A stretch of 64,000 bases of DNA from Micromonospora gifhornensis. GTDB lineage: Bacteria; Actinomycetota; Actinomycetes; Mycobacteriales; Micromonosporaceae. A model generated the notes under the pieces. The model was not told the DNA's origin. It searched no databases and saw only the letters and a program-made list of their open reading frames with translations. Numbering within the stretch: position 1 is the stretch's first letter; every line of letters begins with the position of its first letter. The stretch is from positions 62,001 through 126,000 of the forward strand of contig NZ_BOPA01000027.1 of assembly GCF_016863515.1 (NCBI RefSeq). Reading direction: 5' to 3'. Both the position numbers and the translations under genes were made by a program. This document shows positions 33,941-49,788 of this stretch, piece after piece.

Positions 33941-33990
33941 GACCGGGCGACCGGTGCCCCGATAACGGTGGGGACACGGCTACCCCGGTC
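33941..33990. terminator. Possible bidirectional hairpin between Fe-ADH and HEAT genes
   Basis: GACCGGG (33941-33947) pairs with CCCGGTC (33984-33990), and inside it GTGCCCC (33954-33960) can pair with GGGGACAC (33970-33977) with a bulge. The right arm runs into the stop codon of the convergent HEAT gene. Confidence 0.5.
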
Positions 33991-36900
33991 AGCTCATGTC
34001 GATGGCGTATGCCTCTGCGCGCACGTCGAGGTCCGGGTGCTGGCGTAGCCGGATCAGCAGGTCTCGCCATGGCGTTTTCCATCCGAAGCCGGCGCCGTGA
34101 CGGACCAGCGATACCGCGAACAGGCCACCGGCAAGGTCGCCGCGCTCTGCCAGGTCGACGATGGTGGTGGCGAGAGCGTCGGTGTCGGGCCACTCGTGCA
34201 GGCTGCGCAGGCGGACGCCGACGCGTTCGGCGGTGCGGACCGCGAGGACGGGTCGGCCTTCGCACAGGTCGGCGATCTCGTCGAGATTGTCGAGTCGGTG
34301 AAGGTCGACCAGCAGCGCGGTCGCCGTGCCGGTGAAGCCGGGTCGGGTGGCGAGCCAGCGTGCTGATTCGACAAGTGTGCTGCGGTCGGCACTGGGCGGC
34401 TGGTGGCCGGATCGGACGGCCGCACCCCGGGCGAGAAGTTCGATGCGGCGTCGGTGCGGGCGGTCACCCGTGGCGGGGTCGCCAGGATGGTTGTCGTCGG
34501 CATCCCGGGCGACGAGGCGTGTCAGCGCATCACGGAGTACGTCGTCGCCGCCGGCCTTGAGCAGATCGGCGACCTCGCTGGACGTGGTCGTCTCGTCAAG
34601 GTCGATGAGGCGGTGCACGACGAGGTCGGCGACTCCGGTCAGCCACGGTGACCAGGCCCCGAGTTGGACGAACGCGGCACGTCGGATCTCACGGTCGGTG
34701 GCCCGACAGGCGTCGACGACGAGCGCGCCGTAGGCCGGGCGGTGTCGGTGCGGGATCGTGTCCGGGTACGCGTCGAGGACGGCGCGGCGCTCCTCCCGGC
34801 TACCGTCGACGGTGGCCCGCAGGATGGTCCAGCTCGCGTCGGTGTGTAGCCGCTGCCGGGCGGCGGACACGATCGCCGCGCGCACGTCGCGGTGCGCGTC
34901 CGGGCGTCGGTGGACGTCGAGCAGGGTCGTCAGCGTCTGCGGCGGCCCGTAGCGGGCCAGCAGCCGAGCTGCCTCCTTCCGGCTGGTGATCTTCACCGCG
35001 CCGGTGAGCACCTCGCTGAGCAGCCGCACCAGCAGCGACGGTGCGACGTGCCGGGCGGCCCGGCCTGCCGCGTACAGCGCGACCCGAGCCCGGTCGCTGT
35101 CGGCGTACCGCAGCAGGAGCCGCAGTGCCTCGTCGGGCCGGTCGGTCCAGACCAGCGCGCCCAGCGCTGCCTCGGCAATCGCCACCTCAGGGGCGTCGAC
35201 GTGACGCAACACCAACTCCCGTCCCGCACCCGGAACGCGGGCAGCGGTCCAGATCGCCGCCGCCCGGAACCACACCTTCTGCCCTGTGTCGGCGATGACG
35301 AGTTCCTGCAGGTGCACGAAGCGGGCCTGTTGGCGGGGCAGCCAACGCTCCGGGTGCACCGCCCGGACGGGCACCCACGGCGTTCCCGCCTCGATGAACC
35401 GGCCGCGGGGACGGTGGTCCAGCGCCTGGTCGAGCAGGTCGGTGCGGACGGTGCAGATCGTCGTCCACACCTCGTCGATCGTCACCGCCGACGGATCGGT
35501 CGCGACTACCTCGGCGACGCGGCCCGCACGCGTACGTGGATCGTCCAGCCACAATCCGATTGCGGTACGGGCCACCGAGGGCAGCGTGTGCGGGCCGATC
35601 GCGCGACGCAGCAGGTCCTGCAGTTGCGGCACGCGCCAGGCTCGTTTGCCGAACGCGTAGCTGAGCGCGAAGAGCGGCCCGTACCGGCCCCGGTCGATGC
35701 CGGCCGTGACCCAGTCGTGCAGCCGCTGGAAGACCAGCGTCTCCTGCCCTCGCCGCAGCACCGTGTCGAAGCGGCGCAGCACCGGCACGTGGGCACCGGT
35801 GCTCACCAGGTCGATCGTGAGTAGCGCCCACTCCCACAGCGGCGGCACGGCGACGTGGTGTTGCAGCACGTCGACGGCGAGGCTACTCAGTGCTGTCGTG
35901 GTGGCGGCGGAGGCGTCACGGGCGTCGACCGCGTCGGTGCTCAGCTGCGTGAGACCGGCTGCCGTGTCCGCGGTGAGCAGTGGCGCCACCCTCGCCAGTG
36001 CGGTGAGCGCGGCGGCCCGGACCGGATCCTGCTCGTTACGCAGCCGACTGAGCCGCACAACCACCTCCGCCACCGCCTGTGGGTCACGGGAGCGGCGGGC
36101 GGCCTGCAAGAGCAGCGTGTAGCTGTGCGCCCGCTCGTCGGCGTCGCCCGAACGCAGCGCGTTCTCCAGCGCCGCGGACGCCTGCGGCCAGTTCAGGTAC
36201 GCCGACCAGGTCCGTACGTCGGCCTCCCGTTCGCGGATCTTCGGCAGGCCCAGCACCCGGTTCGCCTCACGCACCCGGACCGCGGCTGGCAGCACCTCCA
36301 TGATCTCGGCGCTCGGTATCCACGCCGCCGTGTCGACCTCGGCCAGGGCACGGTCGTACAGCTCCCCACGCCGGGCCGGCGCGACAGCATCGAGCAGTGC
36401 CGCCAGAGCCCGGCTGCGGTCGTGGAGCCGACTGGCCAGCGACACCAACTCGTCGGTGGGCAGCACCGCCAGCCGCCGCAGCACAGCCGGCGGAAGCGCG
36501 GAACGCCGCAGCCACGCAGCCCGGCCAGGCGCGGTGAGCAGCCGGATAACCCGGCTGGCGTCGTACGCCGCGAGCACCCCGTACGCGGTGAGAGGGCCGG
36601 GTAGCCACTCCTCAGGCGCGTACCGTTCGAGCAGGTCGAGTGCCTGCGCCGGGTCGCACCTCAGCACCGCAGCAGCGGCCTCGACCCAGATTCTTTGCCG
36701 CAGTTCGGGTCGGGCTGCGGCGAGCCGCTCGCGGACCCGGTCCAGCAGCGGGCCGGAGTGCCACCGGACAAGCCGCTCCAGGCGCATCGCGTGCTCCAGG
36801 TCGGGCAGCAACGCCCGCACCGTCGCGGTGCCGCATGCCGGCAACAAGGCGGCGGCTTCTTCATCACCGAACTGGGCACGGATCTCGCCGATCAGCGCAT

Positions 36901-37264
36901 CGGCGATGTCCGGTGCGGGCCGGCGGCGAAGATCCCGATAGACACGCCGTCGCTCTACCGCCGGCCGATCGGTGACCTCACCGATCGGGAGACCCATACG
37001 CAGCGCCGAGGTGAGCGCGGCACCCCTGATCGATGGCTGGGGATCACGCAGCGCCGCGACGACGCCATCGCTGTCCCCCGCCACCCGCGCCGCGACGAAA
37101 GCGAGGTGCCGCTCGTAGGGGCCCCGCTCGCGGAGGTCGGCACACACCTGCATCCGGTCAGGGGCAGTCTGCGCCCACTGCGCGAGACGGTTCATCCGTT
37201 TGCGGTAGGGCAACGGATCGAGCGAGTTCAGCAGGTCATGGGTGGCAGTGAGCACAGCGTGCAT
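33989..37264 (-). CDS. Large HEAT-like repeat protein, function unknown
   Basis: A 1091-residue, Leu/Ala/Arg-rich, almost entirely alpha-helical protein without signal peptide or membrane segment. Repeating pairs such as AALRDPQPSIRGAALTSALR and DPVRAAALTALARVAPLL indicate HEAT/ARM-type solenoids along most of the length. I saw no Walker motif or other catalytic signature. Start ATG 37264 is fixed by GGAGGG just upstream; the frame stays open further but that part is antisense to the PARG gene. It follows the NACHT and PARG genes on the same strand (181-base gap). It could be a scaffold, a sensor or a regulator of the same system. Confidence 0.82.
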   Translation of the reverse strand: MHAVLTATHDLLNSLDPLPYRKRMNRLAQWAQTAPDRMQVCADLRERGPYERHLAFVAARVAGDSDGVVAALRDPQPSIRGAALTSALRMGLPIGEVTDRPAVERRRVYRDLRRRPAPDIADALIGEIRAQFGDEEAAALLPACGTATVRALLPDLEHAMRLERLVRWHSGPLLDRVRERLAAARPELRQRIWVEAAAAVLRCDPAQALDLLERYAPEEWLPGPLTAYGVLAAYDASRVIRLLTAPGRAAWLRRSALPPAVLRRLAVLPTDELVSLASRLHDRSRALAALLDAVAPARRGELYDRALAEVDTAAWIPSAEIMEVLPAAVRVREANRVLGLPKIREREADVRTWSAYLNWPQASAALENALRSGDADERAHSYTLLLQAARRSRDPQAVAEVVVRLSRLRNEQDPVRAAALTALARVAPLLTADTAAGLTQLSTDAVDARDASAATTTALSSLAVDVLQHHVAVPPLWEWALLTIDLVSTGAHVPVLRRFDTVLRRGQETLVFQRLHDWVTAGIDRGRYGPLFALSYAFGKRAWRVPQLQDLLRRAIGPHTLPSVARTAIGLWLDDPRTRAGRVAEVVATDPSAVTIDEVWTTICTVRTDLLDQALDHRPRGRFIEAGTPWVPVRAVHPERWLPRQQARFVHLQELVIADTGQKVWFRAAAIWTAARVPGAGRELVLRHVDAPEVAIAEAALGALVWTDRPDEALRLLLRYADSDRARVALYAAGRAARHVAPSLLVRLLSEVLTGAVKITSRKEAARLLARYGPPQTLTTLLDVHRRPDAHRDVRAAIVSAARQRLHTDASWTILRATVDGSREERRAVLDAYPDTIPHRHRPAYGALVVDACRATDREIRRAAFVQLGAWSPWLTGVADLVVHRLIDLDETTTSSEVADLLKAGGDDVLRDALTRLVARDADDNHPGDPATGDRPHRRRIELLARGAAVRSGHQPPSADRSTLVESARWLATRPGFTGTATALLVDLHRLDNLDEIADLCEGRPVLAVRTAERVGVRLRSLHEWPDTDALATTIVDLAERGDLAGGLFAVSLVRHGAGFGWKTPWRDLLIRLRQHPDLDVRAEAYAIDMS

Positions 37265-37445
37265 TCTGCCCTCCACCCCATCCGCGAGGAGATCGATATA
37301 TCGTCCCGTTCGGCGGCAGCCAGCCGTCGTCAGCGAGGATCTGCCGGATCTCGATGGAGCCGAGATGCCTGCGGACGGCGTCGGGTAGCAGCGCCGCCGC
37401 AGTCCGCCTGTTGAGGGCGTGCGTCCGCGCTCCCAGCCGCCGATT

Positions 37446-38258
37446 TCACGGCAGTTCCGGAAAGCGCTCCACGAAGGTGCGATACACCGGTGTGCCCGGC
37501 AGACCATCGCGGATGGCAAACACCACGCGGTCGAATCGGTCGACCATCTCCAACGCGTCGGCGAACGCACCGGCCACCGCGGCGGGGTCGTTGCGGAACA
37601 CGCCGCACCCCCACGCACCCAACACCAGCGTCCGATGCCCGTGCGCAGCCGCGGCCTGCAGCACCCGCCGGGCGCGCCGGACCAGCACCGCCGGTACGTC
37701 CGTCGTATGCTCGGGCTGGTTGCGGAGGATCGCGCCAAGGTTCGGCGCCGCAGCGGTCAGGAACGATGTGGTGTACGACTGGTCGAGCAGGTTGCCCTTG
37801 TCGTCACGGAACACCGGCACGTTCGGGGAGTAGATGACGCGGTCGCTGTACCGCAGATCCCGCTGTCCTCGATGGAACGTGTAGAACTCTGGTGCCGCAA
37901 GCAGACACGGGTACAGCGCCGATGCGCGGGCGATGCTCTCCTCCTGCGCTTTCGCCCCGCCCAGGAATCCGCCACCCGGGTTCTTCGCCGACGCGAACAC
38001 CAGACAGGCCGCCCCAGGCCCCAGCCGGTAAGCCGCCTGCAACGTCGACTCGTACGTCACCTCCACCTCACCCGCGCCAGGCGCCGCGCTTTCCACCGCA
38101 AGGACCTCGTTCGGCAGGTGATGGCGCGTGCCGGCGACTGCGGCACGTACCGCCTCGCCGATGACGACCTCATCACCGGCGGCGTTGCGATAGCGTCCCG
38201 ACTCGGCGATCGCCACCGTCTGCCGAGCGATCTCACGAAGTCGGCCGCTCACCGGCAC
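37446..38258 (-). CDS. Bacterial-type poly(ADP-ribose) glycohydrolase (TIGR02452/DUF2263 family)
   Basis: A 270-residue macrodomain-fold protein of the microbial PARG family. The defining signature GGG-x7-QEE is present as NPGGGFLGGAKAQEESIAR, with GGG at 95-97 and the catalytic Glu pair at 106-107. YSPNVPVFRDDKGNLL and LGAWGCGVFRNDP are the other conserved blocks. Such enzymes release ADP-ribose from poly(ADP-ribose). Start GTG 38258 has no strong ribosome binding site; GTG 38252 is an alternative. It lies 101 bases after the NACHT gene stop on the same strand, which suggests co-expression and points to ADP-ribose or NAD chemistry in this locus. Confidence 0.88.
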   Translation of the reverse strand: MPVSGRLREIARQTVAIAESGRYRNAAGDEVVIGEAVRAAVAGTRHHLPNEVLAVESAAPGAGEVEVTYESTLQAAYRLGPGAACLVFASAKNPGGGFLGGAKAQEESIARASALYPCLLAAPEFYTFHRGQRDLRYSDRVIYSPNVPVFRDDKGNLLDQSYTTSFLTAAAPNLGAILRNQPEHTTDVPAVLVRRARRVLQAAAAHGHRTLVLGAWGCGVFRNDPAAVAGAFADALEMVDRFDRVVFAIRDGLPGTPVYRTFVERFPELP

Positions 38259-38359: not shown

Positions 38360-41300
38360 TCACGGAAAGTCGTCGGGCGTGATGTCGGGCAGCGTGGCGA
38401 GCAGTTGCCCGGCCAGGCGCCGTACGGTGTCGTCGTCCCGCTGGCGGCCGAGCCGTATGAGCAGCTCTCGAGTCCGGGTGTCTCGGTAGTGGTGTCGGGT
38501 CAGCGCCAGCAATGCGGTCCGGCGGATTTCCCAGTCGTTGTCAGCGGCCAGCCGGAGCAGCAGCTCCGGCACTCCGGCCCGGCCGGCCAGGGTCGCGCCG
38601 AGTTGTTCCACCGCTCGGCGCCGGACCTCCAGGGCCGGGTCGTCGCGGACCAGTCCGACGAGCAGCACCTGAACCTCGGGGTCGGTGCCGAAGTGTTCGC
38701 CGAGCGCGGCGGCGATGCGGGCACGGATCGCCGGGTCCTGGTCGGACAGGCGGCGCATCAGTCGCAGTGTCACCGCCATGGAGGCGCTCCCCTGCTCGGT
38801 GAGGCAGCAGACCGCGGCGTCGAACACGGTCGGGTCGGTGTCTGACTCGACGCATTCCAGCAGCGTGTCGGTCACCACGTCGGGACTGCCGTGACGGCAG
38901 AGCGTCCGCACGGCGGCCAACCGGATGCCGACGTAGCTGTCCCGGCGGGCTCGCCGGCACAGTGTTTCGACAAGGCTGTCGGTCTCGCCGTGCCGGGCGA
39001 GCGCGTCGGCGGCCGCGCGCAGCACGTTCGGGTCGGGATCTCGGCTGACCTGTTCGGCCAGGCACTCCCGTACGGCGGGGTCGGGTGGGTCGGCGAGACG
39101 GGCCAGGCTTCGGGTGACCCGCAGTCGGACGAGCGCGTCGCGCTCTTCGAAGGCTCGGCTGATGAGCAGGTCGCGGGTGGCACGGCCGAACAGTTGTCGG
39201 CCGGTGAGCAGGTCGACGGCGGCGAGTCGGACGCTGGCGGTCGGGTCGCGTCGGGCGCTGGCCAGTAGTAGTTCTTCGGTACGCGGGTCCGGGTGGGTCT
39301 CGGCCAGGGCGCGTACCGCGGCGAGGCGTACGGTGGCGTCCTCGTCGGCGCGAGCCGCCCGCGCCACCACGGTCCAGCAGGCGTCGTCGGTGCTGTCCCG
39401 GTCGATCAGTGCGGTCACGGCGGCAGCCCGCACGGAGGCGTCCTCGTCCTGTTCAATCTGATCGATCAGCCGGGCCCGGCAGCGGCCGTCCGGGTCAGGC
39501 ACGAGCGTCAACCGCTGTACGGCGGTGGCGCGGAGCCGGGCGGAGCTGTCTGAGCCGGCCAGCTTCAGCAACAGCTCGGTCTCCTCCGGCCCGGCCCGGC
39601 CCGGCAGCAGTCTGGTCGCCAGGCAGCGCCGCACCTCGTCCGGGGAGTCGCCGGTCATTCGCTGTAGCGCGCGACTGCGGGCGGTCTCGGCGTGTTCGGG
39701 CAGGGCCAGCAGGGCTGTCAGCGCCTCCTGCACGACTGCGGGATCGGAGTCCGTGGCCAGCAGTCGCTGGAGGGTGCCGGGTGCGTGCGGTAGGTCGGTG
39801 CAGCGCGCGGTGAGCACGGCGACCGCCGCCCGTCGTACCGTGGCGGCGTTGTCCTCGGTGGCCCGGAGCAGGACGTGGCGGATGTTGTCGCTGAGTTCCG
39901 CCCGACCGCCGAGAGACTGTACGGCCAGCGCGCGGACCGCGGGGTCGGGCGAGTCGGTGAGGTCGCGTAGCTCGTGGATGAGGTCGGCATCGGCGCCGAA
40001 GTGAGTGATCAGGGCCCGTACGGCGGCCTGCCGAACGGCGGTGGAGACCTCGGCTCCGGCCTGTGTGATCAGGATGTCCCGGTAGCGGTGACGGTCGCCG
40101 TCGGTGGCGTTCAGCCGGCCGGCGGCTTCGGCGAGCCCGGCGACCAGGGCGAGGTGGGCTTGCCGCTCGCGGCCGTGCTGGAGCTCCCGGACCAGCAGTT
40201 CCTCCAGGTGTTCCTCGGTGGTGGACAGCGCTGCGGCGATCCGGGTGGCAAAGGTGGAGCCGGAGCGCCAGCTGGTGCGTACGCCGCGGCGGCGGTACCA
40301 GTTCAGGAAGGTGTGCCGGCCGGGCCAGTTCGGCCCGAGTGCCCGCACCGACGAGAGCAGTTCCTGTTCGGTGAGCTCGGTCAGGTTGGGGTCGTCGGCG
40401 GAGATGCCGTGTTCGACAAGCAGGACGATCTGGCACAGCACGGCGTTACCCGCAGCGGTCAGTTCGGCGGGCTGTGGGGTTTCGGCCACGCATTGTGCGG
40501 CCAGCACCAGGTTCCAGGGCGGGGCGGTCAGGTTCAGCGGCGGCCAGGGTTGGGTGGTCTCGGTGGCGAGCAGGGTGATCAGGTCGTTGGCGATCCGGGC
40601 GGGTAGGGCACCGGCGACGAGGCGCAGCACCTCTCGCCAGGACGGGTCGGCCCAGTGTTCGCGGAAGAGGGCGCGGAGCCGGTCGAGGTCCCAGGCACCG
40701 GGGTCGTTTTCGAACCTGTCCACGATCTCCTCGGCGCAGAAGAATTCCAGGAACGCGCGGTGCACGAACCCGAACAGTCGCAGTCCGTATCGTTCCAGGA
40801 TGAAGCTTCGGTGACGCAGTTTTTCGATCATCGAGTAGGCCATGGCGAGCGCCCGCTCGTTCTCGAAACCGTAGAACGCGACGAGGTGGTCCCGGAAGAC
40901 GCGGCCCAGTTCGTCGGAGTCGATGTAGTTGCCTGCTGGTCCCGATTCCCGGAACTGCATGTGGAATGCCAGGTGACGCAGTAGTCGACGCTTCGCCTGC
41001 AGGTCCAGCGACGGGACGTCGCCGTGGCTCTCCCGCAGTTGTTTGGTCACGTCCCACTCGGAGATGAGGACGTCGGTGACGTGTGCGTACAGTCGGCGTC
41101 GGTTGCGGGGCAGGGGGTGGCTACGGCCGACGATCGTCATGAGCATCAGCAGGAGTGGGTTGCCGGCGATCTCGTGCATCGCTCGGGAGTTGCGCAGCAT
41201 GTCGAGAAGCTGTCGTCGTTGCCGTTGTGCTTCGACAGCTGGGGTGGACATCACGTAGCGGTACCAGTTGTCGAGGAACTGGGTGATTTGTTCGTCGTCG

Positions 41301-42574
41301 AGGTCTTCGAGGGTGAAGTGGTCGAACCCGGCGTTGGCGAACGTGTGTCGCTGGTAGCCGGCCGCCCGTGAGGTGACCACTGACAGCACTCCCGGGTACT
41401 CGTTGGCGAAGGTGGCGATCTGTGCGGCCACCTCTTCGCGCTGAGCCGGGTCGAACACCTCGTCGAGTCCGTCGAAGAGGAAGAGGGCTTGGCCGCCTTG
41501 GCGCAGGTATGACTCCAGCACCTCCTGGTCGATTCCGGTCAGTCCCTGTTGGTGGCGGTGTCCGACGTAGTCGAGTAAGCCGTCGCAGCGGCCGTCGCCG
41601 CGGTGCGCGGCGTAGGAGCGAAGCTCGATCAGCACGGGCAGGTACTGGTTGAGCGCCGCGAGTCGCGGTTCGTCGCAGGCTCCGGCCAGTGCCAGTGCCA
41701 GGTACTGCGCGGCCGCTGACTTGCCGGAGCCTGGGTCGCCGAGCAGGACGATCGTTTGGCGGCCGGGGTCGCAGACCACGTCGAACAGCGAGAGCGCGTC
41801 CTTGGCCGCGTACTCCTCCCAGAGTCGTTCGAGCTCTTCCGGGTTCACCACGCCGGGTAGGCCGCTGGTGTCGCCGTCGGATGTGGTGCCGGCCCATCGC
41901 CACCAGGCCAGTGGCATCTCCGGGCGGGCTTCCTCGTGTACTCGGGGCTCGACGAACAATTTCGGCAGTCCGACGGTGAGGTAGCCGATGGTGGGACGTG
42001 GTGAGACGGCGTCGACCGGGACGGCTTGATATCTGAGCGCCAGTTGCTTGTGGTAGTGGCTGCGTACGGCTTCGGGTAGGTGGGTGTCCGGATCGGCGGG
42101 TCCACGTGCGGGAGAGCGTCCACTGCGTACGTCGGCCAGCGCCGCGGTGACCTTGGCGGTGAGGTCGTCGACGCTGGTGAAGAAGGCGCACAGGTGTCGT
42201 TCCTTGAGTTCGCGGCGCAGTTCGACGATTCGCTCGCCGTCGGCACCCCGGTCGACCTGGTCGACCGGCCAGGGGGTCTCCTCGGCGAGGAGGAAGACCA
42301 GGCAGGGTTTTCCGGCCGCGAGTGCCTCGCGGTACTCCAGTTCGGTGATGGAGGATTCCTGACCGGGCGGGCGAAATCCGTAGCGCCAGGCAAAAAGTCC
42401 GATGTAGAGGTCGCAGCGGCGTACGTCGGCCAGGCAGCGGTCGAGCGGTGGTCGGACGTCAGCACCGTACGCTTCCATGGCGACGTCCTCGATCTCCAGA
42501 CGGCGTGCCACTGCGTGTACGGCAGCGCGATATTCCAGCAGGTCTTTCTGAGTGGCCGAAAGGTAGACCTTCAT
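38360..42574 (-). CDS. DUF4062-NACHT-HEAT STAND-class protein
   Basis: A 1404-residue NLR-like protein. Residues ~2-145 are a DUF4062 domain (MKVYLSATQKDLLEYRAAV, CDLYIGLFAWRYGF, SSITELEYREAL). A NACHT NTPase follows, with Walker A VLLGDPGSGKSAAAQYL (~275-290) and Walker B ALFLFDGLDEVFD (~362-374), then a winged-helix/helical region (~440-700). About 550 C-terminal residues (~830-1390) form HEAT repeats spaced near 31 residues. This is the layout of bacterial STAND immune sensors: N-terminal effector/adaptor, central switch, C-terminal sensor. Start ATG 42574 has GGAG ten bases upstream. It is the first of three minus-strand genes and divergent from the SCO2521-like gene. Confidence 0.88.
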   Translation of the reverse strand: MKVYLSATQKDLLEYRAAVHAVARRLEIEDVAMEAYGADVRPPLDRCLADVRRCDLYIGLFAWRYGFRPPGQESSITELEYREALAAGKPCLVFLLAEETPWPVDQVDRGADGERIVELRRELKERHLCAFFTSVDDLTAKVTAALADVRSGRSPARGPADPDTHLPEAVRSHYHKQLALRYQAVPVDAVSPRPTIGYLTVGLPKLFVEPRVHEEARPEMPLAWWRWAGTTSDGDTSGLPGVVNPEELERLWEEYAAKDALSLFDVVCDPGRQTIVLLGDPGSGKSAAAQYLALALAGACDEPRLAALNQYLPVLIELRSYAAHRGDGRCDGLLDYVGHRHQQGLTGIDQEVLESYLRQGGQALFLFDGLDEVFDPAQREEVAAQIATFANEYPGVLSVVTSRAAGYQRHTFANAGFDHFTLEDLDDEQITQFLDNWYRYVMSTPAVEAQRQRRQLLDMLRNSRAMHEIAGNPLLLMLMTIVGRSHPLPRNRRRLYAHVTDVLISEWDVTKQLRESHGDVPSLDLQAKRRLLRHLAFHMQFRESGPAGNYIDSDELGRVFRDHLVAFYGFENERALAMAYSMIEKLRHRSFILERYGLRLFGFVHRAFLEFFCAEEIVDRFENDPGAWDLDRLRALFREHWADPSWREVLRLVAGALPARIANDLITLLATETTQPWPPLNLTAPPWNLVLAAQCVAETPQPAELTAAGNAVLCQIVLLVEHGISADDPNLTELTEQELLSSVRALGPNWPGRHTFLNWYRRRGVRTSWRSGSTFATRIAAALSTTEEHLEELLVRELQHGRERQAHLALVAGLAEAAGRLNATDGDRHRYRDILITQAGAEVSTAVRQAAVRALITHFGADADLIHELRDLTDSPDPAVRALAVQSLGGRAELSDNIRHVLLRATEDNAATVRRAAVAVLTARCTDLPHAPGTLQRLLATDSDPAVVQEALTALLALPEHAETARSRALQRMTGDSPDEVRRCLATRLLPGRAGPEETELLLKLAGSDSSARLRATAVQRLTLVPDPDGRCRARLIDQIEQDEDASVRAAAVTALIDRDSTDDACWTVVARAARADEDATVRLAAVRALAETHPDPRTEELLLASARRDPTASVRLAAVDLLTGRQLFGRATRDLLISRAFEERDALVRLRVTRSLARLADPPDPAVRECLAEQVSRDPDPNVLRAAADALARHGETDSLVETLCRRARRDSYVGIRLAAVRTLCRHGSPDVVTDTLLECVESDTDPTVFDAAVCCLTEQGSASMAVTLRLMRRLSDQDPAIRARIAAALGEHFGTDPEVQVLLVGLVRDDPALEVRRRAVEQLGATLAGRAGVPELLLRLAADNDWEIRRTALLALTRHHYRDTRTRELLIRLGRQRDDDTVRRLAGQLLATLPDITPDDFP

Positions 42575-42849
42575 AAACGGCAACTCCAGGGGTAGCTGGC
42601 GTCCGCACTATCGAAAATATCAGTCGTCGTCACGTTCGTGCGGCCGGCGACGCTCCGCCGCCATAGGATTCCCGCCGATGTCGGGCCTATGATGCCCCCA
42701 GGGCAGACGCCGACCCGCGGGTCGATTCCGTTTTCGCCGGGTCCCGTTACCTCAATGGGGTCGGTGTCCGCGCAGGTCACGGCGAGGTTAATCAGCGGGG
42801 GTCGCATTCCGCAGGATGATTGCGGGCGGACGGCGATGCGGAGGAAGCC
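42575..42849. other. Divergent promoter region, NACHT gene / SCO2521-like gene
   Basis: A 275-base gap with no gene seen. The end next to the NACHT gene is AT-richer (around 42610-42625, GAAAATATCAG), a likely -10 area for the minus strand. No clear operator palindrome was found. Confidence 0.45.
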
Positions 42850-43806
42850 ATGATCACTTTCGGTGAGGTGCACACCAACCTGCTTCAACACAGCACGGCG
42901 CTGGTTCAGGAGCAGAGTTCGCAGGTGCTCAGCCTGGTCGAAGGCGAGGCCGTGCTGACATCCCGCCGTCCGTCGCTCTATGCGGTCTCGCCCGATGTGC
43001 GCACCGGCGTGGACTGCTGGCTGCCCAGCGCCAGGCGGAGGAGGCTACGGGGGGTGGGCGCGGTGGTCACCCGGGCCATCATCACCGGTGGCCGAATCGT
43101 GCAGGCGTCGTCGGTCATCCAGGTCGTCGCCGGAGAACGTCGCCAGCCCTGGTCGCACTATCTGGCCAACCCGGGCATCCTGGAGACGGTCGGCAAGCTG
43201 GACAGCGCCGACCTGACCTCGGGGTTCCTGCACGGCCACGACACGGACGTGCTGAACCTGGAGGCGATCACCGGGCGGGTGCTCGACGGGGTGCAGATGT
43301 CCGACCTGCTGGACCGGCGTCCGCCGCTGCGTGCGGCGCGTACCCGGCTGCGCTGGACCGCGCAGGTGGGCCAGCAGCCGGACCGGGAGGTTTCGGCCGT
43401 CGTCACCGTGGACTCCCCGACCCTGCGTACGGTCGAACTGGTGCTTGCCCCCCAGGACGTGCCGGCGGCCGTGGCCGGTCTCTGCGAGGACCTCGCGTTG
43501 CACGACTGGCTGCTGACCACGCTCTCCTCCCTGATGGAGGCCGTTGTCACCCGGTCGGGCAACGGGCAGGAGCATGTCGAGCGATTGCGTCCCGTGTTGG
43601 AGCACCTGCTGCATCTGTGGTTGCCGGGCGCGCGGGTCGACCCGCGACTGCGGCCCATCTGGGACCGGTTGGAGCAGGTGCCCGGATTCAGCCGCCAGTG
43701 GAACTCGTCGGTGAACTGGATCCGCGATCAGATCAGTGTGGGCAACCTGGCGCTACTGCGTGACCTGGCGAGCCGCATGTCGGTCGACCAGCCATGTGGA
43801 CGCTGA
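42850..43806 (+). CDS. SCO2521-family-like protein, function unknown
   Basis: A 318-residue soluble protein with no motif I recognise as catalytic. It opens MITFGEVHTNLLQHSTALVQ, has an Arg-rich stretch (~60-70) and a helical C-terminus with LRPVLEHLLHLWLPGARVD. The family assignment is by recall and by position: it heads a gene set that runs in the same order as the SCO2521-SCO2525 families. Start ATG 42850 is set by GGAGGAA at 42840-42846. Unlike the other four genes of the set it is on the plus strand, and its stop is six bases from the convergent SCO2522-like stop. It is divergent from the NACHT gene. Confidence 0.7.
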   Translation: MITFGEVHTNLLQHSTALVQEQSSQVLSLVEGEAVLTSRRPSLYAVSPDVRTGVDCWLPSARRRRLRGVGAVVTRAIITGGRIVQASSVIQVVAGERRQPWSHYLANPGILETVGKLDSADLTSGFLHGHDTDVLNLEAITGRVLDGVQMSDLLDRRPPLRAARTRLRWTAQVGQQPDREVSAVVTVDSPTLRTVELVLAPQDVPAAVAGLCEDLALHDWLLTTLSSLMEAVVTRSGNGQEHVERLRPVLEHLLHLWLPGARVDPRLRPIWDRLEQVPGFSRQWNSSVNWIRDQISVGNLALLRDLASRMSVDQPCGR

Positions 43807-43812
43807 GCACAC

Positions 43813-44790
43813 TCACCCGCCGATGAACACGTAACTCAGCCGGTCGACGAGCTCGCTGGGCAGGTCCAGGCCTTCACCACCGGCGCGCCGGGTGACCTGT
43901 TGCGCGACCGCCGGCGGTACCGCCACCTGACCGAGGATGGTCCGTACCGCCAGCTCGACCGGCAGGTACTGGGTGTCCATGAGGGTCAGTGTGCGGTACG
44001 CGCAAAACGGCGCGGCAGTCGGGTTGAGCTGGACGATCGCAGGCAACTCGTCCCAGTCGGCGGGTAGCTCGCCGGTGAGCCGGCTCGGTTGCATCAGGGT
44101 CTGCCCGCGGTGTCGCAGCACGCCCAGCCGGGCCATCTGCCAGACCGATGCGAGCAGCGCGCACGCCCACTCCCGGGTCTTCGGTCCGTCGGACCACAGC
44201 TCTATGTCGACGAAGATCGAGTGCCGGGGGTCACCGGACTGCACCGGCGGGGACCAGGGGCGAGGCAGGGTCATCGCCGGCGCGTCCACGTACCCGGGTG
44301 AGCGCATGCCGTTGGACAGCCACCCGGATTCACTGAGCGGGGGCCGGCTTCCGGTGGTGTGCCGAGGTGGCTCCACCACGAGGGTGTCGACCACCATCTG
44401 GGCGAGTTCGACGCCGCCGTGACGGGCGAAGCTGGATTCCCGAGCCACGTAGTCCAACACCAGGCCCAGCTCTGCCGCGGCACTCTGCACCTGTGGGATC
44501 ACCTCGCGGGGTGAGCCGAACCGGTGGAAGTAATCGTCCACCATGAAGCAGGTGCTGATCCGCGGCTGGCGCGGGGCCGACAGTCCCTGGCGGGCCAGCG
44601 CCGGGATCGCCGGTGACCAGTCGGCGATGCGCGCGAACCTGCGCCGCAGGTCCTGGCAGCCGCTGCCGAAGTCGTCCGCGTAGAAGTGGCCCAACTCGAC
44701 CGACAGATGTGAGTACGCCACGCTCTCTGTCCGACGCACCGCAGCTGCCTCCTGGAACCTGACATCCACGTCGATCACACGGTTTCCCAT
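43813..44790 (-). CDS. SCO2522-family-like protein, function unknown
   Basis: A 325-residue soluble protein. Distinct stretches are SVELGHFYADDFGSGCQDLR, ISTCFMVDDYFHRFGSP and FVDIELWSDGPKTREWACAL. I see no known catalytic motif, membrane segment or signal peptide. Its start overlaps the 3' end of the P-loop gene by 16 bases, so it is translated from the same mRNA. Family name is by recall and gene order, next to the P-loop protein as in the SCO2521-2525 set. Confidence 0.72.
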   Translation of the reverse strand: MGNRVIDVDVRFQEAAAVRRTESVAYSHLSVELGHFYADDFGSGCQDLRRRFARIADWSPAIPALARQGLSAPRQPRISTCFMVDDYFHRFGSPREVIPQVQSAAAELGLVLDYVARESSFARHGGVELAQMVVDTLVVEPPRHTTGSRPPLSESGWLSNGMRSPGYVDAPAMTLPRPWSPPVQSGDPRHSIFVDIELWSDGPKTREWACALLASVWQMARLGVLRHRGQTLMQPSRLTGELPADWDELPAIVQLNPTAAPFCAYRTLTLMDTQYLPVELAVRTILGQVAVPPAVAQQVTRRAGGEGLDLPSELVDRLSYVFIGG

Positions 44791-45704
44791 GCGGTCTCGT
44801 CGAAGAGCTTTTCGGTCAGCTCCACGATGGCGTCCACCGTCTTCACATTCGCAATCTTGGCTTGTACGTCATGGTCCGAGATGAGCTGTTCGCGCCACTG
44901 CAACAGCGGGTCCAGCGGTACCGCGCCGAGCAGCGTCGTGCGTCCGACACCTCGACGGCGGGCCAGTTCCGACAGTTCCGTGTCGCACTTGCGCAGGAAT
45001 GCCTGCTGCGCGAGGTCGAGGTGGCCGACCTCGGGGCCGCGGGAGTCGATCACTGCCGTGCGGATGAAACGCAGCGACTCCCGCAGCCGCTCCGGCTCGT
45101 GGCCGTACTCTTTGGCCATGGCGAGGATGCCACCCGCCTCAAAGGCGAGATCAGCCGCCGCGGTGACGTGCTGAGGAGTCCAGCGATGGAAGACCAACCA
45201 GCGCGCGACCACCTTGCGTAGCGCGGGGGTCGCGGTGGCAGCCAGCACCATCTGACTGGCGTACGACCGGCCGGCGCTGAGGTCCACGAGGGTCAGGTCG
45301 AACTCCTCTTCCAGTCGGAGGAAGAGCTCGGCGCAGCGTTTGGCGATGTCGTTGGTGAAACCGAACTCACTGCCGTTGCGCTGGCCGGGTAGGAGCACCA
45401 ACGGACCCGAACCGATCGGTCGCTGGCGCAGGCTGGCCCGTTCCGAGCTACCCCACACGTCCAACTGCTCGGGAAACGGGATTTCTCCGCGCAGGTAGCG
45501 GTGCAGGCCTCCGTTGTTGGGTCCGGCGCCCTCCACCCCGTTGACGGCGTCCGGGATCTGAAACGTGATGCCGGCGGTAGGCGAGCCGAAGTCGTAGTCC
45601 AGGTAACAGGTGGGACGGCCGGACAGGGCGCTGCGGTAGGCGATGTTCGCGGCGGTCACCGAACGACCGGTGCCACCCTTGTGCGACGTGACGAAGACCA
45701 GCAT
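44775..45704 (-). CDS. SCO2523-family-like variant P-loop (ParA/MinD-like) protein
   Basis: A 309-residue protein of the SIMIBI/ParA-like NTPase type. It opens MLVFVTSHKGGTGRSVTAAN: the deviant Walker A KGGxGK[ST] is present but the catalytic Lys is Arg14. The signature lysine at 9 is kept. YLDYDFGSPTAGITFQ corresponds to the ParA switch DxD region, and FDLTLVDLSAGRSYASQMV to Walker B. Nucleotide binding may survive while hydrolysis is weak or lost. Start ATG 45704 overlaps the SCO2524-like stop by one base, with GAGGGG upstream. The frame stays open further upstream, but that part is a shadow of the SCO2524-like gene. Confidence 0.85.
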   Translation of the reverse strand: MLVFVTSHKGGTGRSVTAANIAYRSALSGRPTCYLDYDFGSPTAGITFQIPDAVNGVEGAGPNNGGLHRYLRGEIPFPEQLDVWGSSERASLRQRPIGSGPLVLLPGQRNGSEFGFTNDIAKRCAELFLRLEEEFDLTLVDLSAGRSYASQMVLAATATPALRKVVARWLVFHRWTPQHVTAAADLAFEAGGILAMAKEYGHEPERLRESLRFIRTAVIDSRGPEVGHLDLAQQAFLRKCDTELSELARRRGVGRTTLLGAVPLDPLLQWREQLISDHDVQAKIANVKTVDAIVELTEKLFDETAWETV

Positions 45705-47545
45705 CAGATCCCCTCGCTGGCTTTCTGCTGCCCGGTAGTGACGTCGTTGAGCAGGAGCAGCAGCGTGTTCGCCAGGGCGGCCGCCGTGCCCGGGCGTTCG
45801 TCCACCAGCAGTTGCGCCTGGCGCAGGCTCGCCCGGATGCTGCGCATGCTGCGTTGCATCGCCTCGCCGGCGAACGTGCCGCGCATCAACTCCCGGTCGA
45901 ACAGGTATTCCGCTTCGTCGATCAGATCCTGCGCGTACCCGGAGAGCCGGGCTGCGCGCGGGAAGGGCCGATCCCAGAGCAGCTGACCGGCGTTGACCAG
46001 CGCCTGTACGACCCGCGCGGTCAGATACCAGGAGGGCGCCTCCGGCCTGGGAGCCAGCCCGGGGAAAGCGCCGCCGGCATGGTCCCACAGCCCTCGGTGC
46101 CGGCCGTCGGGAATGCGGCGCAGCACCAGGTGGTCCCACACCTCGTCGGCCAACTCGAGCAGTTCGCTGCGCCGCCGGGCGTTGCTCAGCAGACCGGCGA
46201 CGGTGATCGCCCGCTGCAGCAGCACGGTGGAGAACTCGTTCACGACCCACGTCATGATCGGCTTGGACGTGTCGTCGTTGAGGGTGACCCGCTTACCGGG
46301 AGTGTGCACAAGCAGCGCTGACTCGCCGGGCGTTGCGCGTCGGGTGACGCGGGCCCGCTGGGCCAGTTCCACCAGGACCGCGGCGATGCGGCCGAGTTCC
46401 TCGTCGCCGCCGCGTCCGACCGCGAGCAGTCCCTTGACTGCCAGCGACGTCGCTTGGAGGGTGTAGTAGTCGGTGCGGTCGCCGTCGGTCGTGCGCCACG
46501 GGATGTCCTCGATGGGCCATCGCCGACGGTTGCCGAAGGTCGCCACCGTCGCCCAGTAGGTCCGGGTCAGCTCCCAGCGTAGCTGCAGCGCCCGGGACAA
46601 CCGCTGTTGTTCCTCGTTGAGCAGGCCGAGCAGGCGGGTACGTTCGGAGTTCAGGTCTTCGATGGCATCCATCGCGATGACCGTGAAGTAGAGGTAGGGG
46701 GCATTCTCGGCCGAGCCTTCGCGTTGCCGGCCGATCGACTCGCTGGTGGGGACTTCCTCGGCGCCGGCGATGATGCCCCACGACCAGCCGCATTCGAAGA
46801 GCATGTCGCTGTTGTCGAGGTCTTCGGTGACCCGGCCCGACCCGATGACCACGCTGCGCAGACTGGCCATGGTGTCTCGCAACTGCTCGCGCAGCGCCGC
46901 GACGAGTTCCCGGCGCGGTAGCTCGTCCTGGTTTACCATGTCGCACAGTCGTCGGCCGTACTCGTCGGTGGAGGTGAAGACGAAGGTGCTGAAGCTGCGC
47001 AGCAGGCCCACCATGGCGGCGGTGAGCCGAATGCTGGCCATCGTCTCCAACTCGTCCAGTTGCGCGAGCAGTTCCCGTCGCTGGGTGGCACTGCGGTAGA
47101 CCTTGACGAAACCGATGGTCGCCAGCGTGAGGGTGACGGAGACGGCGAACGAGTCGACGATGTCCTGGGACCGTTGTTCCTCGGTGAGCTCCGGGCCGCC
47201 CTCGACGGGGGTGAGGTAGCCGCCGCCGCCGAAGACGGGCGTGCCGTCCTCGGCGGTGTACCGCCGGAAGTAATCGATCATGACGGTGACCAGCCGGCGG
47301 GGTATTTCGATCGCACCGCCGAGGGAGTTGAGGGCCTCGATCACCTCGTCGTCGGCGCGGTCGGGGTCGTCGAGCGACAGCGCAGGGATCTTCGATGCGG
47401 GCAGGAGCAGGGTCAGCAGTTGCTCGGCATCATTTATGGAATTGCTACCGCTTCGGCCGCCCCAGTGCCATTCGCCTTTTTCCCAGCAGCTCCGCACCGT
47501 GGCCCGCCAGATGTCGAGGATCTCCTGGCGCGGCTGTATCCGCAT
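45704..47545 (-). CDS. SCO2524-family-like protein, function unknown
   Basis: A 613-residue, mostly helical protein. It begins MRIQPRQEILDIWRATVRSC and contains a Gly-rich GTPVFGGGGYLTPVEGG, a stretch SFAVSVTLTLATIGFVKVYR that could be a buried or membrane-associated helix, and HRGLWDHAGGAFPGLAPRPE with PSWYLTARVVQALVNAG near the C-terminus. No NTPase or nuclease motif was seen. Start ATG 47545 is the best of several (weak GGTGGA upstream); 47626 is possible. Coupled to the P-loop gene by a one-base overlap. Family by recall and order. Confidence 0.75.
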   Translation of the reverse strand: MRIQPRQEILDIWRATVRSCWEKGEWHWGGRSGSNSINDAEQLLTLLLPASKIPALSLDDPDRADDEVIEALNSLGGAIEIPRRLVTVMIDYFRRYTAEDGTPVFGGGGYLTPVEGGPELTEEQRSQDIVDSFAVSVTLTLATIGFVKVYRSATQRRELLAQLDELETMASIRLTAAMVGLLRSFSTFVFTSTDEYGRRLCDMVNQDELPRRELVAALREQLRDTMASLRSVVIGSGRVTEDLDNSDMLFECGWSWGIIAGAEEVPTSESIGRQREGSAENAPYLYFTVIAMDAIEDLNSERTRLLGLLNEEQQRLSRALQLRWELTRTYWATVATFGNRRRWPIEDIPWRTTDGDRTDYYTLQATSLAVKGLLAVGRGGDEELGRIAAVLVELAQRARVTRRATPGESALLVHTPGKRVTLNDDTSKPIMTWVVNEFSTVLLQRAITVAGLLSNARRRSELLELADEVWDHLVLRRIPDGRHRGLWDHAGGAFPGLAPRPEAPSWYLTARVVQALVNAGQLLWDRPFPRAARLSGYAQDLIDEAEYLFDRELMRGTFAGEAMQRSMRSIRASLRQAQLLVDERPGTAAALANTLLLLLNDVTTGQQKASEGI

Positions 47546-47774: not shown

Positions 47775-48563
47775 CTATCCGCGGGTGCGGCCGGTGGTCA
47801 GCAGCATGCTCTGGTATCCGTCGCGCAACGGCGGTCGAGGGCGCTCCTCGTGGACGGTCACGTCGTACGCGCCGGCCGCGATGCCAGCCACCACCTCGGC
47901 GCGGTGCAACGCCACGGCCGGAAACGAGCGCAGGCCGACGCGGTATCCGACGGATCCGAGCATGACGGCCACGGCGAAGGGTGCGCCGGGACGCAGCGCC
48001 CGCAGGAACCGGGCGACGGCGTGTTCGGCCTCCGCCCGGTCGGCCGAGATGGAGCAGGCCACGAAAAACATCGTGCCCGCGTCCCAGGTGTGCTGCGGCA
48101 GGTCGAAGACGCTGGTCCGGCAGACCTGGCCGACCTGAGCCAGGCGCTGTCGCGGATCCGACAGCGCCGCGTACGCCGGATGCTCGACGCAGACCTGCCA
48201 GTACGGATCCCAGAGTTCGTCGTAGCCGTCGACCTGCGTACGCAGCCAGCGCACGTTCGACGTGGACAATTCACACAAATCGATGGCACGCGCGAACGGC
48301 AGGAGCGTCAGGGCCGGATAGAGGTTGGCGCCCGATCCGACGTCGACACAACGCGCGTCGGTCAGCTTCGCTGCGGCGAAGAAGTCCCGGGTTCGGCGGA
48401 GCAGCTCCCGGTCGTCGGAGCGCAGGTCCGCGTAGTTGTGCCGGACATAGGCCTGCGGGTCGAACCTGTCCCACTCGACCTCGGTGTTCACCGGCCCCGG
48501 GGACTGCATCGGCACGGATGACGCGGAATCGCCACGACCGCCGGCCTCCGGGGTCAACGCCAT
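47775..48563 (-). CDS. SCO2525-family-like SAM-dependent methyltransferase
   Basis: A 262-residue class I methyltransferase resembling the NNMT/PNMT/TEMT group of small-molecule N-methyltransferases. Motif I is CVDVGSGANLYPAL (~92-105), followed by AIDLCELSTSNVRWLR (motif II region); VNTEVEWDRFDPQAYVRHNY at the N-terminus is typical of that group. Start ATG 48563 follows TGGAGG. It is first in the minus-strand series SCO2525-, 2524-, 2523-, 2522-like, with a ~230-base gap before the 2524-like gene. The substrate is unknown. Confidence 0.85.
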   Translation of the reverse strand: MALTPEAGGRGDSASSVPMQSPGPVNTEVEWDRFDPQAYVRHNYADLRSDDRELLRRTRDFFAAAKLTDARCVDVGSGANLYPALTLLPFARAIDLCELSTSNVRWLRTQVDGYDELWDPYWQVCVEHPAYAALSDPRQRLAQVGQVCRTSVFDLPQHTWDAGTMFFVACSISADRAEAEHAVARFLRALRPGAPFAVAVMLGSVGYRVGLRSFPAVALHRAEVVAGIAAGAYDVTVHEERPRPPLRDGYQSMLLTTGRTRG

Positions 48564-48879: not shown

Positions 48880-49788
48880 TCATGTCCGCGGCCCCACGGA
48901 AGCCAGGTCCTGGGAAAACGGGAGAAGCCGGTGGAACTTGCCGGCATAGCTCGCGATATCGGCAGCATTCTGCGAGAAGTGATTGTCGTCGTCATGGTCC
49001 GACATCGACACGGTCCGGTGCATGATCCTTCCGTCGATGACAACAAATGACTCGCGAAGCGACTTCTGTATCCGGCGGTTCTGCACCCATTTGACGTTGA
49101 TCCCGAGATTTGCCTCAATTTCCATGAGGTCGTAGAGTTTCGGTGTCACGTTCTCGGAGATGAAGATGCGGGAGATTCGGACACCGCGGTCGGCGATGAG
49201 CGAACGCTGGATCTCCAGATACTCGCGGTAAAGCGGCAACTGCCACCACACGTCCTCGACCTCGGCCGGGCTCGTGCCGAGCACCTCGGTTGTGGCGGAG
49301 CGCATCAGATCCAGCAGCACGTTGGAGTACGTGAAGTCGAGTTGCAGACGGCCATCGGCGAGGCCGGACAGGTCGTCCAGAGTGTTTCGTACCCGCGCCA
49401 CGGCCTGCTCCACGAGGATGTGATCGAGGTTCTCCGCGCGGCTGGCCTGCCCGATCTTCGCCAGCCGCTTGACCTCGGGGTCGAACAATCCGAGGTTGGC
49501 GCCTCTGCTGATGAAATCGTACGTCTCGGTAACCGAGCGCAGGGCAGACTCAGTTCGCGTCCAGCCCTGGTCCAGTTCGCGGTGCGCGCGGGCCTGCTCT
49601 TCCTTGATCTCGTTGAGTTTCTGCATCATCCCGAACAACAGGCTCGTGGCCACGCCCGTGAGACCCAGGGCAACGCTCATCGGCCCGCTGATGCCAGCCA
49701 GCAACGTGGCGACGATTGCGACGAGAGAGACCAGCGTGCCCAGAACCGAGATTGCCCAGTCAGCCGTGAACCTCTTGAGGTCGCGCAT
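48880..49788 (-). CDS. Two-TM membrane-anchored protein with C-terminal unknown domain
   Basis: A 302-residue protein. Two adjacent hydrophobic helices (~8-31 VLGTLVSLVAIVATLLAG and ~34-53 VALGLTGVATSLLFGMM) form a membrane hairpin with both ends cytoplasmic. A charged, probably coiled-coil segment follows (~55-85, KLNEIKEEQARAHRELDQGW), then a ~190-residue globular domain with VWWQLPLYREYLEIQRSLI, VRISRIFISENV and ESFVVIDGRIMHRT. The last part resembles domains placed after HTH or TM anchors in PLD-like and regulator-like proteins, but I cannot name it. It lies upstream of the SCO2525-like gene on the same strand. Confidence 0.72.
   Translation of the reverse strand: MRDLKRFTADWAISVLGTLVSLVAIVATLLAGISGPMSVALGLTGVATSLLFGMMQKLNEIKEEQARAHRELDQGWTRTESALRSVTETYDFISRGANLGLFDPEVKRLAKIGQASRAENLDHILVEQAVARVRNTLDDLSGLADGRLQLDFTYSNVLLDLMRSATTEVLGTSPAEVEDVWWQLPLYREYLEIQRSLIADRGVRISRIFISENVTPKLYDLMEIEANLGINVKWVQNRRIQKSLRESFVVIDGRIMHRTVSMSDHDDDNHFSQNAADIASYAGKFHRLLPFSQDLASVGPRT

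Follow-up and report, generated by a model that had tools for sequence, protein, structure and literature searches.

An invariant arginine in place of the phosphate-loop lysine in the SCO2523 family of ParA/MinD-fold proteins

P-loop ATPases are commonly disabled by mutating the lysine of the phosphate loop. In the soil actinobacterium Micromonospora gifhornensis, a ParA-like gene on a 64,000-nucleotide stretch of contig NZ_BOPA01000027.1 (positions 62,001 to 126,000, forward strand; referred to as the window) encodes arginine at precisely this site. This raises the question of whether the arginine is an accident of one strain or a fixed feature and, if the latter, what kind of nucleotide switch such a protein might be. 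We report that arginine is fixed family-wide at the lysine site while the remaining catalytic site is kept, and we discuss what this, together with the gene neighbourhood, suggests about function.

The gene is located in the middle of a conserved gene cluster, SCO2521-SCO2525, and the relevant features are as follows (positions are those of the window):

42820-43806, plus strand: SCO2521-family gene, convergent with the operon (NF040565, 368.4 bits, cut-off 150)
43813-44790, minus strand: SCO2522-family gene (NF040566, 458.4 bits, cut-off 200)
44775-45704, minus strand: SCO2523-family ParA/MinD-fold gene, assigned on the basis of the NF040564 match, conservation, the AlphaFold2 (AF2) model and fold matches
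45663-45680, minus strand: P-loop codons Lys9 to Arg14 of the SCO2523 gene, counted from the start codon at 45704
45663-45665, minus strand: Arg14 codon, counted likewise from the start codon at 45704
SCO2523 protein, Asp36 and Asp38 (switch I), Asp141 and Arg146 (Walker B/switch II): active-site residues
SCO2523 protein, residues 173-179: HRWTPQH motif
45704-47545 (ORF to 47626), minus strand: SCO2524-family gene (NF040567, 806.9 bits, cut-off 300)
47775-48563, minus strand: SCO2525-family SAM-dependent methyltransferase (NF040568, 312.6 bits, cut-off 240; PF01234, 40.6 bits)

The minus-strand frame from 45704 to 44775 encodes 309 amino acids followed by a stop, and the product begins MLVFVTSHKGGTGRSVTAANIAYRS. 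Its P-loop reads HKGGTGRS, with the signature Lys9 retained, Arg14 at the site of the phosphate-loop lysine and Ser15 directly after it; reading the frame thus bears out the motif, residue numbering and coordinates given in an initial annotation of this DNA. There is a one-base overlap between the start ATG and the stop codon of the SCO2524 gene upstream (TGATG), and the 3' end overlaps the SCO2522 gene by 16 nt (44775-44790). For SCO2524 the start was set at 47545, i.e. residue 28 of the ORF, where the NF040567 model begins. The window protein matches NF040564, "SCO2523 family variant P-loop protein", with 426.6 bits (cut-off 200) over residues 1-308 and model positions 1-304 of 305, and the best 20 named records nearest to it carry Micromonospora or Verrucosispora titles. 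It is an ordinary member of this catalogued family, and the variant P-loop is already recorded in the published family name; the oddity is not new with this window.

Genomes with a SCO2523 match over the cut-off numbered 7 of 396 in the phylum, 37 of 394 in the class and 114 of 200 in the family (Micromonosporaceae), with draws that overlap; in the phylum search the profile scores drop from 425 bits to 39.6 bits. The full-length alignment comprises 165 rows, i.e. the window protein and 164 relatives, among them the window's own copy under the handle L001, with identities to the window protein between 45 and 100% (median 54%). A reduced alignment (A1) combines the window protein with 88 sequences from a set of 99 representatives (90% identity). 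Left out were 4 of the 168 distinct SCO2523 matches, all fragments of broken copies in two loci (L121 and L122), where the SCO2523 frames are apparently decaying. The P-loop is covered by two of these fragments, both with arginine, and lies outside the other two.

All 165 rows have Arg14 and none has lysine. Arg14 is likewise present in all 7 additional copies, which come from two other families of the order. We also looked for a Lys-type subgroup within the SCO2523 family and found no member among the 165 rows. The initial annotation had noted that lysine in most homologues would make the arginine a strain-specific mutation, and the alignment gives the opposite result. The codons at site 14 (n=164) are CGC (83), CGG (46), CGT (17), CGA (10) and AGG (8), so that all but one of the six arginine codons occur, and AGG is one step away from the lysine codon AAG. 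Since synonymous codons vary at this site, it is the amino acid that is held and not the DNA. The absence of lysine and the variation in codon usage support the view, already put forward in the initial annotation, that the change is not random decay.

The rest of the site is also conserved. Ser/Thr15, Asp36 and Asp38 are present in 165 of 165 rows, Asp141 in 164 and the signature Lys9 in 163, and Arg146 is invariant (165/165). Other residues invariant in the 165 rows include Gly11, Gly13, Asn20, Gly40 and Gly145 as well as Trp169, His173, Arg174, Trp175, Thr176 and Gln178. Together with the gene content discussed below, which was scored in 110 loci, these data show that the remaining catalytic motifs and the operon have been retained.

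In 110 SCO2523 loci of at least 8 kb, a set that counts near-copies too, SCO2522 and SCO2524 were each found in 108, SCO2521 in 103 and SCO2525 in 68. Among the 200 Micromonosporaceae genomes, SCO2524 was detected at E 1e-20 in 113 (112 over the cut-off) compared to 114 for SCO2523, and the listed genome sets are identical except for one genome (G857); SCO2524 is a constant partner of SCO2523. Some genomes carry multiple copies of the cluster (L266, G864, G939 and G1009), and in L266 the clusters are arranged in tandem about 7 kb apart. Two long minus-strand frames near the cluster in the window should also be mentioned: 48880-49788, which has no NCBIfam or Pfam match and was not found in the 110 loci (mostly 5-6 kb flanks), and 33989-37738, which has no NCBIfam match and lies outside the reach of these flanks. 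Crude gene calling of the neighbourhoods, which yields many antisense frames, gave no further clear conserved neighbour, and among the neighbours Pfam names no ParB- or MinE-like partner. PADLOC returned only weak, partial matches, and SCO2524 had a single weak match (E 0.049) among the sequences of solved structures.

The two rows lacking Lys9 are L050 (K9T) and L112 (K9R together with G10D and D141G). Both belong to a group of 4 loci (of 110) for which the tblastn search found no SCO2522 or no SCO2524, and the other two of these four, L117 and L195, retain Lys9. This is no more than a hint that retention of Lys9 goes with retention of the partner genes. As separate observations, SCO2524 was not found at L050, neither SCO2521 nor SCO2522 was found at L112, and both look like decaying copies.

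In Streptomyces coelicolor, HupS is reported to control the operon sco2521-sco2526 and SCO2525 to be "necessary for normal growth" (excerpts of PMC11472566); SCO2525 is also described as "with a morphogenetic role" (excerpt of PMC6344877), and SAM and antibiotic production have been connected with it (excerpt of PMC3017869). Our literature search using the SCO2521-SCO2525 locus tags did not return the SCO2523 tag itself.

With respect to the neighbouring SCO2522, the AF2 model has a pLDDT of 84.2 and is low around residues 141-183. VIA-align placed the ArgRS structure 2zue first (Z 11.7, rmsd 3.6, 210 aligned residues), and all 50 listed rows are class I aminoacyl-tRNA synthetases; Foldseek alone gave weak matches, the best being 1iq0 (E 2.7e-3). 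Invariant residues of SCO2522 are S30, E32, G34, H35, D86, R117 and E118, of which, on our reading, E32, G34 and H35 (ELGH in the window) fall where a HIGH motif would be expected, with D85-D86 placed where ArgRS has its N-D pair. Comparing SCO2522 with 22 ArgRS cores using hhalign gave a probability of 0.2. Pfam identified no tRNA-synthetase family in 74 SCO2522 members; 12 Pfam families match only one or two members each and none of them convincingly. Searching the sequences of solved structures with SCO2522 returned nothing convincing, and profile comparison between SCO2522 and SCO2523 found nothing. The predicted class I aaRS-like core is therefore best taken as a lead from the structural model, to which the profile comparisons lend no support.

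Next to the cluster, on the far side of SCO2521, we find:

38360-42583, minus strand: DUF4062-NACHT-HEAT gene encoding an NLR-like STAND NTPase (PF13271, PF05729 and PF13646 over cut-off)

Using the window copy as query (E 1e-100), NACHT-HEAT matches were present in 39 of the same 200 Micromonosporaceae genomes. Of these 39 genomes, 32 have their best copy at a distance of 2.1-3.8 kb from SCO2523, a count to be read knowing that a linked query favours linked orthologues. In the remaining seven genomes all copies lie elsewhere and are weaker, with scores of at most 407 bits. An additional unlinked copy exists in 7 of the 32 linked genomes (347-797 bits), and two of these are nearly equal to the linked copy. 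In the 86 genomes without SCO2523 the only matches are weak copies in two genomes (343 and 362 bits). Fisher's test for the linkage gives p = 3e-9 with kinship ignored. In G864 each of the two SCO2523 copies has its own NACHT-HEAT copy, and in five loci where SCO2521 was not found the NACHT-HEAT gene adjoins SCO2522. A linked copy is missing in 82 of the 114 SCO2523 genomes at E 1e-100, and the NACHT-HEAT gene is therefore an optional partner.

The AF2 model of the SCO2523 protein, calculated as a monomer without nucleotide from 89 family sequences, has a pLDDT of 93.0 and a pTM of 0.92. Foldseek ranks MinD-like FlhG (4rz2) at the top (E 1.1e-10), with FlhG, MinD and FleN among the first matches. 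VIA-align aligned 241 residues with Helicobacter pylori Soj (6iub; Z 22.9, rmsd 2.6) and gave Z values of about 22-23 for several MinD and ParA chains; BcsQ structures are also among the fold matches. The ParA/MinD fold covers residues 1-305. At the sequence level, Mrp/NBP35-type carriers are closest among the solved chains (3kb1, E 4.7e-6), and the Pfam matches of the window protein, CbiA (20.4 bits) and ParA (20.0 bits), are both under their cut-offs. As judged from the alignment, Arg14 would occupy the position of the phosphate-loop lysine in the active site.

The KGGVGR family (NF047398, "KGGVGR-motif variant AAA ATPase") provides a relative with the same arginine, although the window protein scores only 37.8 bits against it, under the cut-off of 90. 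We scanned eight KGGVGR proteins with Pfam, several of them frames cut off by locus ends: NB-ARC is over the cut-off in four and just below it in one, TIR_2 is present in three, and the FxSxx_TPR model is matched in part by six, two of them over the cut-off. One protein has TPR repeats instead and one is without any such module. An extra switch II arginine is present at position 146 in 19/19 SCO2523 rows and at position 143 in 18/18 KGGVGR rows, and arginine occurs at neither position in 26 other rows (21 KGG..K and 5 RGGTGK).

For the 23 next-best loci below the SCO2523 family (L008-L030) the motif was read in 22, L029 being the unread one; they are KGG..K types, five RGGTGK, one KGGTGR (L022, which is a KGGVGR protein) and two KGGTGA (L017 and L018). 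The five RGGTGKS relatives (L008, L009, L011, L014 and L021) are among the best-scoring non-members in the phylum search (at most 39.6 bits). We calculated two trees with the arginine column omitted. The first was built from 58 rows out of 86 prepared, with near-copies and roughly half of the SCO2523 rows left aside and RGGTGK rows absent, and its rows were chosen by motif, i.e. Arg or Lys at site 14 is there by construction; SCO2523 and KGGVGR lie together on the same side of one branch (support 87/49), unstarred and with long branches. In the second tree of 50 rows (10 SCO2523 and 14 KGGVGR rows, with RGGTGK rows added) the support is 91/77, also unstarred and with long branches. As far as such comparisons of sequences go, a single origin of the arginine in SCO2523 and KGGVGR would be favoured a little.

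What could a protein with this site do? Our leading reading, which we hold as tentative, is that SCO2523 is an ATP-binding, slow-turnover, nucleotide-locked scaffold or switch for SCO2524 and SCO2522. In such a protein Arg14 would supply the lysine's charge on the beta and gamma phosphates of ATP-Mg, Ser15, Asp38 and Asp141 would hold Mg and water, and the kept signature Lys9 would close the usual two-fold ATP dimer. Turnover would be slow on its own and give rise to a long-lived nucleotide-locked state, which could then serve the co-encoded SCO2524 and SCO2522; Arg146 in switch II may set or partly replace the catalytic geometry. The output would probably be a stress, developmental or self/non-self signal, a suggestion that derives from the link between the cluster and the NLR-like NACHT-HEAT gene in many genomes. 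The proposal of the initial annotation, a nucleotide sensor or partner switch rather than a fast ATPase, is a plausible hypothesis. The invariance of Arg14 would also fit the site of another ligand or a structural role.

According to an excerpt of PMC6254361, proteins with a lysine-to-arginine change "often, but not always" bind ATP without hydrolysis, and the authors' own Msh2 changes showed binding defects. Our literature search for lysine-to-arginine changes in ParA proteins did not find a direct test. TadZ, which has lost both lysines, is reported to be ATPase-active, and a mycobacterial MinD homologue with alanine in place of one or the other lysine showed no significant change in ATPase activity (excerpts of PMC10482377); Arg14 does not, therefore, prove slow hydrolysis. 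These two reports are also in favour of an active ATPase in which Arg14 takes over the role of the lysine while Arg146 or another residue compensates, and in which MinD/ParA-like cycling positions or recycles partners. The nearly complete retention of Ser/Thr15, Asp38, Asp141 and Lys9 and the fold similarity to Soj and MinD point in the same direction. Against it, lysine never appears in the 165 rows even though it is one codon step away in eight of the genes, which a simple substitute for lysine would not require, and the neighbours include no ParB- or MinE-like partner named by Pfam. We consider such an enzyme unlikely.

It is also conceivable that the domain no longer uses nucleotide and has become a protein-protein interaction fold or a decoy. 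Kaur et al. (2020) predict related MinD/ParA-like domains of actinobacterial conflict systems to be inactive, referring to an "inactive MinD/ParA-like domain" on AP-ATPases of peptide-processing systems (excerpt of PMC7159879), and the KGGVGR family, with the same arginine, is joined to TIR, NB-ARC and FxSxx_TPR modules in several proteins. A dead site should, however, drift at Asp38, Asp141, Ser15 and Lys9, and hardly any drift is seen; in addition, both copies without Lys9 are among the four loci where tblastn found no SCO2522 or no SCO2524, with L117 and L195 keeping the lysine. Loss of nucleotide use thus appears rather improbable. Finally, a strain-specific mutation or a meaningless sequencing error can be dismissed with near certainty given the arginine in every aligned row and every further copy.

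Returning to the nucleotide-locked switch, a broader and in our view doubtful extension is that the cluster and the NACHT-HEAT gene form an undescribed actinobacterial signalling or anti-phage/stress system, in which an ATP-locked Arg-type ParA switch would act with an aaRS-derived SCO2522 and a STAND sensor/effector. If true, Arg-type ParA domains would be general partners of STAND ATPases, joined to them in the KGGVGR-TIR-NB-ARC proteins and encoded by a separate gene in the SCO2523 cluster. Apart from this, Arg14 is a real and well-kept feature and a known hallmark of a catalogued family, and the interest of the locus lies in the clean test that it offers and in the NACHT-HEAT linkage. Swapping arginine for lysine (R14K) would directly test ParA-type proteins as nucleotide-locked switches versus cycling motors, and the linkage to an NLR-like gene is a concrete lead on the role of a little-studied actinobacterial cluster.

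How does the SCO2523 protein compare with known systems? The deviant Walker A ATPases MinD, ParA and Soj share the common fold, the signature lysine, the Walker A Ser/Thr and the switch I and Walker B aspartates with it, and differ in that the window protein has arginine as the phosphate-loop residue. It is a variant-motif relative of these ATPases and not a canonical member, since the phosphate-loop lysine of KGGxxK[S/T] is arginine in all 165 rows. To NF040564, whose name records the variant P-loop, the match is full-length, with no tested difference in the window protein. NF047398 has the same lysine-to-arginine change with the signature lysine kept in all 25 over-cut-off loci that were read (L212-L236), and both families have the switch I pattern D-x-D-x-x-[SA]-P and the extra switch II arginine. 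They differ in the switch II sequence, DLSAGR in the window protein compared to DSRTG in NF047398, and SCO2523 is a stand-alone gene, unlike the NF047398 domain. In the RGGTGKS relatives the pattern is mirrored: the signature residue is arginine and the phosphate loop retains its lysine (5/5). These relatives have the D-x-D-x-x-S-P switch I as in SCO2523. BcsQ, for which the P-loop is listed as RGGVGTT (Table 1 of PMC9178275), and TadZ, in which both lysines are lost (excerpt of PMC10482377), have the same fold. BcsQ and TadZ alter both lysines, whereas in SCO2523 the change is confined to the phosphate-loop lysine, with arginine in every case.
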